From: Pseudothermotoga hypogea DSM 11164 = NBRC 106472
Lineage (GTDB): Bacteria; Thermotogota; Thermotogae; Thermotogales; DSM-5069
Reading direction: 5' to 3'
Assembly (NCBI RefSeq): GCF_000816145.1
Contig: NZ_CP007141.1
Coordinates: 868,001 to 932,000, forward strand
DNA length: 64,000 bases
A program made the translations under genes and the position numbers. The notes under the pieces were generated by a model. That model made no database searches. It was not told the DNA's origin and saw only the letters and a list, made by a program, of their open reading frames with translations. Shown one piece after another: positions 8,947 through 9,488 of this stretch (positions are counted from its first letter, which is position 1; the number at the start of each line of letters is the position of its first letter).

Positions 8947-9011
8947 AACCATCACCTCTCAACACGAAACTAAAAGCGGGCCAGCGCCCGCCCTCGTTTC
9001 GTCTCGTTTTT

Positions 9012-9275
9012 TCATTTCCTCAGGTTCAACTTCTCGATCAAATTTCTGTAGGACTCAGGGTTCGCTCTCTTCAGATACCTCAACATCTTCCTTCTTCTTC
9101 CGACCATCTTCATCAGGCCTCTTCTGGAATGGAAGTCCTTCGGATGGGCCTTCAAATGCTCGGTCAAATGGTTGATCCTTGCTGTGAGCAACGCAATTTG
9201 GACCTCCACCGAGCCCGTGTCCTTCTCGTTGATTCTGAACTGCTCGATGATCTGTTGCTTCTGCTCCTTGTCCAC
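9012..9275 (-). CDS. rpsO: 30S ribosomal protein S15
   Basis: Primary 16S rRNA-binding protein of the small-subunit central domain. The 87 residues show the family core: [40 protein letters not shown] and [17 protein letters not shown]. The GTG at 9275 is favoured over the GTG at 9281, because the latter lies in the ribosome site GGAGGTG itself, whereas 9275 has the correct spacing. It is followed by pnp on the same strand and preceded by tRNA-Gly only 66 bases away. The leader can fold (see the leader entry at 9276-9341). Confidence 0.97.
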
Positions 9276-9341
9276 AAGCACACCTCCGTCTGCTCAGCCT
9301 TCAGCCCAGAAGGGGTCTGCGCCCACATCCGAGCCGAGGTC
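9276..9341 (-). promoter_or_regulatory. Structured rpsO leader, possible S15 autoregulatory element
   Basis: The 66 bases between the 3' end of tRNA-Gly and rpsO can fold over the ribosome site. ACCUC (minus strand, 9340 to 9336) is fully complementary to GAGGU (9286 to 9282), which contains the site; GCUC (9334 to 9331) pairs with GAGC (9295 to 9292); and inside lies a hairpin CCUUC-6 nt-GAAGG (9313 to 9298). S15 autoregulates by leader binding in several bacteria, with unrelated structures. That this one does so is inference. Confidence 0.35.
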
Positions 9342-9417
9342 TGGAGCGGGCGACGGGGGTCGAACCCGCGGCCCTCAGCTTGGGAAGCTGATGCTCTACC
9401 ACTGAGCTACGCCCGCT
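9342..9417 (-). tRNA. tRNA-Gly (CCC)
   Basis: A 76-base cloverleaf on the minus strand. The acceptor GCGGGCG (from 9417) pairs with CGCCCGC; the D arm is GCTC-AGTGGTA-GAGC; the anticodon arm is TCAGC-TTCCCAA-GCTGA with CCC at positions 34-36; the T arm is GCGGGTTCGACCCCCGT-like with TTCGA. The terminal CCA is encoded (9342-9344). It reads into the rpsO-pnp operon 66 bases on, so it may be cotranscribed. Confidence 0.97.
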
Positions 9418-9428
9418 CACCAAACATT

Positions 9429-9434
9429 ATTATA
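9429..9434 (-). promoter_or_regulatory. -10 element of the tRNA-Gly (and rpsO-pnp) promoter
   Basis: A perfect TATAAT on the minus strand, 11 bases before the mature tRNA 5' end. The -35 is weak (TTCACT, 16-base spacer). It may drive the tRNA together with rpsO and pnp. Confidence 0.6.
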
Positions 9435-9488
9435 CCATCGATCGGCGGACAGTGAACATACCATTTTCAATTTTCCACATCAAAGCTT

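Follow-up and report, generated by a model that had tools for sequence, protein, structure and literature searches.

Leaders that bind ribosomal protein S15 are a standard example of evolution producing unrelated RNAs for one protein, and the tRNA-tufB operon of E. coli is a tRNA-mRNA operon in which tRNA processing frees the downstream mRNA. The S15 site on 16S rRNA is bipartite, combining a three-way junction with a GU/GC motif, and leaders mimic either part (excerpts of PMC4684408 and PMC10931766); the GU/GC motif that S15 recognizes lies in helix 22 (PMC4684408, excerpt). S15 autoregulation has been validated in a Firmicute, Geobacillus, whose leader, Gk-mRNA, has a multi-stem junction together with GU/GC (PMC4684408, excerpt). 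The rpsO leader of Thermotogota described here resembles that of E. coli (RF00114) in placing a putative S15 target with a U.G/C-G step upstream of rpsO (PMC10931766, excerpt), but the E. coli leader is a pseudoknot enclosing the Shine-Dalgarno sequence (SD) and the start codon, whereas the Thermotogota leader is a simple hairpin that leaves the downstream SD open. With the mycobacterial leader it shares a structure upstream of the initiation site, a U-G/C-G motif and an open SD (PMC10931766, excerpt), although the mycobacterial RNA is a kissing-loop pseudoknot and the Thermotogota leader a single hairpin. From Gk-mRNA, compared by description only, it differs in that Gk-mRNA has a multi-stem junction. 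Unlike in tRNA-tufB, the predicted tRNA cut site in one Thermotogota family (f1) adjoins a conserved, putatively regulatory hairpin and takes the place of a promoter still present in relatives. S15 leaders as a kind are well known, and we claim no novelty for a tRNA-mRNA fusion as such; what is new is a single hairpin without junction or apical loop, and the exchange of a promoter for a tRNA in one family. We found no report of a Thermotogota S15 leader in the literature searched, which included parts of PMC7247131, PMC4684408, PMC5100602, PMC3636130 and PMC3766115.

The window analysed is a 64,000-nt stretch of the 2.17-Mb genome of Pseudothermotoga hypogea, in which a promoter-like site, tRNA-Gly(CCC), the leader, rpsO and pnp follow one another on the minus strand (Table 1). 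As rpsO start, the ORF caller chose GUG 9281, an in-frame codon abutting the SD; the start is likely GUG 9275, 6 nt past GGAGGU. Within the gap between rpsO and pnp, 8960-9006 on the minus strand forms a strong hairpin (-30.2 kcal/mol, z -5.8), placed similarly to the RNase III/terminator region in the rpsO-pnp gap of E. coli. In most loci of Thermotogota, the 80 nt past rpsO give stable folds (z against mononucleotide shuffles mostly < -2), family f6 and locus L070 being without them.

Table 1 Features of the tRNA-rpsO unit of P. hypogea, in window positions.
Feature	Position	Strand	Basis or remark
Promoter-like site of the tRNA-rpsO unit	9429..9456	(-)	TTCACT-16-TATAAT, TG preceding the -10; consensus scan
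tRNA-Gly(CCC), 75 nt, CCA encoded (A of CCA = 9342)	9342..9416	(-)	ARAGORN, Rfam tRNA
rpsO 5' leader, 66 nt	9276..9341	(-)	
Predicted rpsO mRNA 5' end	9341	(-)	inferred from the CCA-GACC junction and the published T. maritima RNase Z specificity (PMC7479834, excerpt)
Conserved hairpin of the putative S15 leader (P1, internal GU/GC motif, P2), 42 nt	9298..9339	(-)	covariation; covariance model match
P1 5' strand CCUCGGC	9333..9339	(-)	partner GCUGAAGG at 9305-9298, one A bulged
P1 3' strand GCUGAAGG	9298..9305	(-)	
Motif 5' strand CUCGG	9329..9333	(-)	pairs C-G, U.G, C-G, G.U, G-C
Motif 3' strand CUGGG	9305..9309	(-)	
P2 and loop: GAUG, bulged U, GGG / CCC, CUUC	9309..9329	(-)	
Shine-Dalgarno GGAGGU	9282..9287	(-)	outside the conserved hairpin
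rpsO (uS15, 87 aa from likely start GUG 9275)	9012..9275	(-)	homologous in 99/103 Thermotogota genomes
pnp	8955-6769	(-)	

The Thermotogota rpsO leader is a single hairpin kept across the phylum with strong covariation. Leaders were extracted from all 99 of the 103 genomes in which rpsO was found, and 58 were picked from 93 for clean 5' ends and diversity (alignment A1). Most rows of f3, f6, g27, g28 and f11 and half of f8 were kept out of A1 and left for the model search, and three f7 leaders were excluded from the MAFFT sets; f1, the family of the window, is perhaps the Pseudothermotoga group, and g13 is perhaps Thermotoga. In the 58 leaders a stem P1 with one bulged base is followed by an internal motif, CUCGG/CUGGG or CUUGG, and by a stem P2 with a small bulge, and the partner of the ACCU at the 5' end is an AGG ahead of the ribosome site rather than that site. 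Over the 17 pairs, 83.7% of cells are paired and 10 pairs vary on both sides; double-change cells number 147 against a shuffle mean of 55.8, and the covariation (0.379 vs 0.183) is reached by none of 500 shuffles. Slid registers of the 3' strand reach at most 61.8% pairing, compared with 83.7% in register, and RNAalifold recovers 11 of the pairs from A1. Among 97 model-aligned leaders, in an alignment that leans to the structure, covariation is 0.374 vs 0.169 (0/500 shuffles). Two P1 columns illustrate the exchange of bases within A1: column 17/56 holds U-A 25, C-G 18, G-C 5 and A-U 1 times, and column 18/55 holds A-U 25, U-A 19, G-U 5 and G-C 4 times. Folding energy does not single out the 80-nt leader (z -0.93, 39/200 shuffles as stable). 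The hairpin does not include the SD, which follows it after 9-12 nt in f1, 4-13 nt in most other families and 28 nt in L102. In L102 and L091 (f7, g19), the S15-type hairpin lies farther upstream and an additional small hairpin precedes the SD; in g13, the hairpin is shortened.

A covariance model built on Thermotogota leaders, SD included (R1), matches 97 of the 99 rpsO loci at E<=1, 58 of the 99 being training rows, and misses L069 and L091. The window leader scores 55.8 bits, with a genome-wide E of 9.1e-10. Over 103 whole genomes R1 finds matches in 85, the top match being the rpsO leader in every one (85/85), and eight weak second matches follow at E 0.08-0.86; the 18 genomes without a match include four also without an rpsO match and several with a short hairpin, and the filters of the whole-genome search are stricter. 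The S15 family RF00114 matched neither the window at the gathering threshold, nor 9240-9345 at E<=10, nor any of six relatives, and against Rfam 15 the leader has no match, lax thresholds yielding unrelated weak matches only.

The internal motif is the part of the hairpin that points to S15. Its outer pairs C20-G53 and G24-C49 are invariant in the 58 rows, as are U21 and U50, whose partners are always a purine (G 48/A 10 and G 30/A 28). The motif is symmetric, with two stacked G.U/G-C steps flanking one odd pair, and its order, 5'-GG/5'-CU, matches 16S helix 22 of the same genome (GGGAGAC vs GUCUCCU; GGG against CCU), where we take the step in standard E. coli numbering to be G666.U740/G667-C739. 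Scored in fixed columns over 97 rows (A3), the GU/GC step is present on both sides in 42, on one side in 35 and on neither in 20, so that 77 rows carry at least one step. Rows without the step mostly carry A-U (or G-C) replacements and come from f8, f10 and parts of f2 and f9, with some misaligned g13 rows among them; in g13 the odd middle pair is apparently absent, leaving CUGG/CUGG, as judged by eye because the model misaligns these rows. The lack of a full step in 20 of 97 rows weakens strict helix 22 mimicry, and the conserved fold contains no mimic of the three-way junction. To judge from its sequence and conservation, the structure most likely serves S15 autoregulation, so that the proposal of S15 control made in a sequence-only reading of this locus holds in outline. 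At 42 nt, this one hairpin would then be the smallest S15 target found in nature.

Leaders of Clostridia share much of this architecture. They lie directly upstream of rpsO, begin with ACC and carry P1, a doubled GU/GC motif (typically CUAGG/CUUGG) and P2, followed by GG(C/G)GAU and a free SD, but their apical CUCC..RCG loop, near-invariant in the Clostridia alignment (A5), is absent from the A1 rows. A5 comprises 26 of 33 Clostridia-type leaders, five without a 3' anchor and the poorly aligned L218 and L237 being left out and ten 5' ends hand-trimmed; the same P1-motif-P2 plan, typically GCUAGG..CUUGGC, shows covariation above all 500 shuffles. Run on 78 named non-Thermotogota rpsO loci, R1 gives 23 matches at E<=5, 20 of them just upstream of rpsO, a position that R1 favours because it contains the SD. 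It finds the leader of Vallitalea (L145) at E 5e-4, in which CUCAG/CUUAG and P1 are obvious. The L145 leader is intermediate, joining the Thermotogota-type CUCAG/CUUAG motif to a Clostridia-type CUCCGA apical loop. In the opposite direction, a model built from Clostridia leaders without the SD (R2) gives 17 matches at E<=10 when run on the 99 Thermotogota loci. Fourteen fall on leaders and are mostly weak, two of them having E 0.002 and 0.012, and the window leader is absent. Leaders make up ~1.5% of the bases and strands searched, and the naive binomial of 1.6e-23 ignores their richness in hairpins. R2 also matches 16 further non-Thermotogota loci at E<=1 (85 loci given). A shared origin or a transfer is likely, if not proven, and the common architecture suggests that Thermotogota hold one branch of a broader class of S15 leaders. 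There is precedent in the L20 and L21 leaders of Thermotogales, which may derive from Firmicutes (PMC3766115, excerpt). A phylum-wide leader that shares its doubled GU/GC motif with Clostridia would make at least part of the diversity of S15 leaders a matter of old shared descent or transfer.

In f1, a tRNA gene stands in the place of the rpsO promoter. In all 11 genomes, 2 nt separate the hairpin from the encoded CCA of tRNA-Gly(CCC), which is followed by GACC in 10 and GCCC in one. Outside f1, 82 of 86 leaders have a -10 hexamer (at least 5/6 matches) at a distance of 3-15 nt before the first paired base of the hairpin, compared with 0 of 11 inside, where no promoter was found between tRNA and hairpin; shifted controls gave 1-12 of 82-86. 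Most f1 genomes show a -10 box ahead of the tRNA, and at a fixed offset it is found in six of the 11. RNase Z (tRNase Z) of T. maritima is reported to cut directly downstream of CCA (PMC7479834, excerpt), so that after such a cut G9341 would be the first base of the mRNA. With the -10 box at the hairpin outside f1 and the tRNA inside it, the 5' end would lie at the hairpin everywhere, and tRNA maturation probably replaces the transcription start there as the source of the rpsO mRNA 5' end. The earlier suggestion that tRNA processing also sets the mRNA 5' end is supported in outline: the tRNA is placed so that 3' processing would create that end, with a CCA-G(A)CC junction in 11/11 genomes. The only close copies of tRNA-Gly(CCC) in the genome are two tRNA-Gly genes with anticodons UCC and GCC, so the CCC gene is apparently single. 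In f3 genera g12 and g13 (L026, L027, L028, L019, L035-L038), tRNA-Gly(CCC) also precedes rpsO, but the leader there has its own TATAAT box and is set apart from the tRNA by a hairpin resembling a terminator. In the remaining families, the 700 nt upstream of rpsO contain no tRNA gene on the rpsO strand, four loci having shorter upstream sequence. The exchange of promoter for tRNA with an unmoved 5' end is a clean natural experiment, and if the mRNA must start at the hairpin, evolution kept that start by two different means.

The reading we prefer, and consider reasonably probable, is an operator hairpin bound by S15 for translational autorepression, combined in f1 with a 5' end made by tRNA processing. 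The 66-nt leader would fold into one hairpin beginning ~2 nt from the mRNA 5' end. When S15 is in excess over 16S rRNA, free S15 would bind the GU/GC motif and stabilize the hairpin, and the complex, ~10 nt upstream of the SD, would block or trap the 30S subunit, so that S15 would repress its own translation. As the SD is not within the hairpin, S15 would have to act by steric hindrance or by trapping. In f1, tRNA-Gly(CCC) would occupy the ancestral position of the rpsO promoter and the tRNA promoter would drive a single tRNA-mRNA transcript; a tRNase Z cut behind the encoded CCA would then release the mature tRNA and an mRNA beginning GACC, the same end that the transcription start would give in other families. 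The sequences themselves show the conserved fold with its covariation, its near-exclusive link to rpsO, the GU/GC motif and the exchange of promoter for tRNA; from these we infer S15 binding, repression, the block at translation initiation and, in P. hypogea, tRNase Z cleavage.

The strongest competitor, though unlikely, is that the hairpin binds no S15 and guards the mRNA against 5'-end-dependent decay, a protection that would matter most where tRNA processing leaves a 5' monophosphate. In nearly all families the hairpin starts within a few nucleotides of where the mRNA is predicted to begin, which agrees with this. Any stem would protect, however, and in the 58 rows the motif tolerates far less change than the stems, and the best R1 matches are restricted to rpsO. 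We give little credence to an extension of S15 autoregulation in which S15 on the hairpin would alter tRNase Z cleavage, so that excess S15 would lower both rpsO translation and the maturation of tRNA-Gly(CCC).

The sequence-only reading had proposed a branched fold in which ACCUC (9340-9336) pairs with GAGGU (9286-9282) and hides the SD, perhaps as a repressed state, with GCUC/GAGC and CCUUC/GAAGG nested inside. All of these complementary segments are present in the leader, but this is not the conserved fold, and we regard it as very doubtful. The full ACCUC/GAGGU-type helix occurs in 6 of 10 f1 rows and 12 of 19 f10 rows, compared with 0 of the 29 others, so that the pairing is not maintained even within f1, and the full GCUC/GAGC helix occurs in 2 of 58 rows. 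Compensatory change in ACCUC/GAGGU, which had been named as support for the fold, did not appear: the 14 pairs of the fold are 60.9% paired with 20 double-change cells, a level reached by 93 of 500 shuffles, and covariation does not exceed shuffles in the 58 leaders. The SD is moreover invariant for another reason, and a second GGAGGU within the rpsO coding sequence also fits ACCUC. At 37 °C the masking fold reaches -13.4 kcal/mol against -22.5 kcal/mol for the conserved hairpin of the window leader. At 75 °C by extrapolated parameters the conserved hairpin is marginal, and for the window sequence alone a fold containing ACCUC/GAGGU is the minimum free energy (MFE) structure, at a pair probability of ~0.15. 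The fold is possibly a minor or hot-temperature conformer of P. hypogea alone. The three helices of the masking fold were rejected as not conserved, with ACC already used by P1. That the nearly symmetric CUCGG/CUUGG motif is instead a DNA palindrome bound by a regulator, or an attenuator, is most improbable, since P1 covariation keeps pairing while sequence changes, which points to RNA, and a terminator scan of the leader found none.

Two further observations concern the SD complement. The second GGAGGU, at 9202-9207 on the minus strand, is the partner of ACCUC in the MFE structure of a 140-nt fold. In f8 leaders (for example L046, L056, L059 and L079), the lower clamp of P1 is lost and a free 5' ACC faces the GGU of the SD, and in these leaders the ACC/SD pair could be real.
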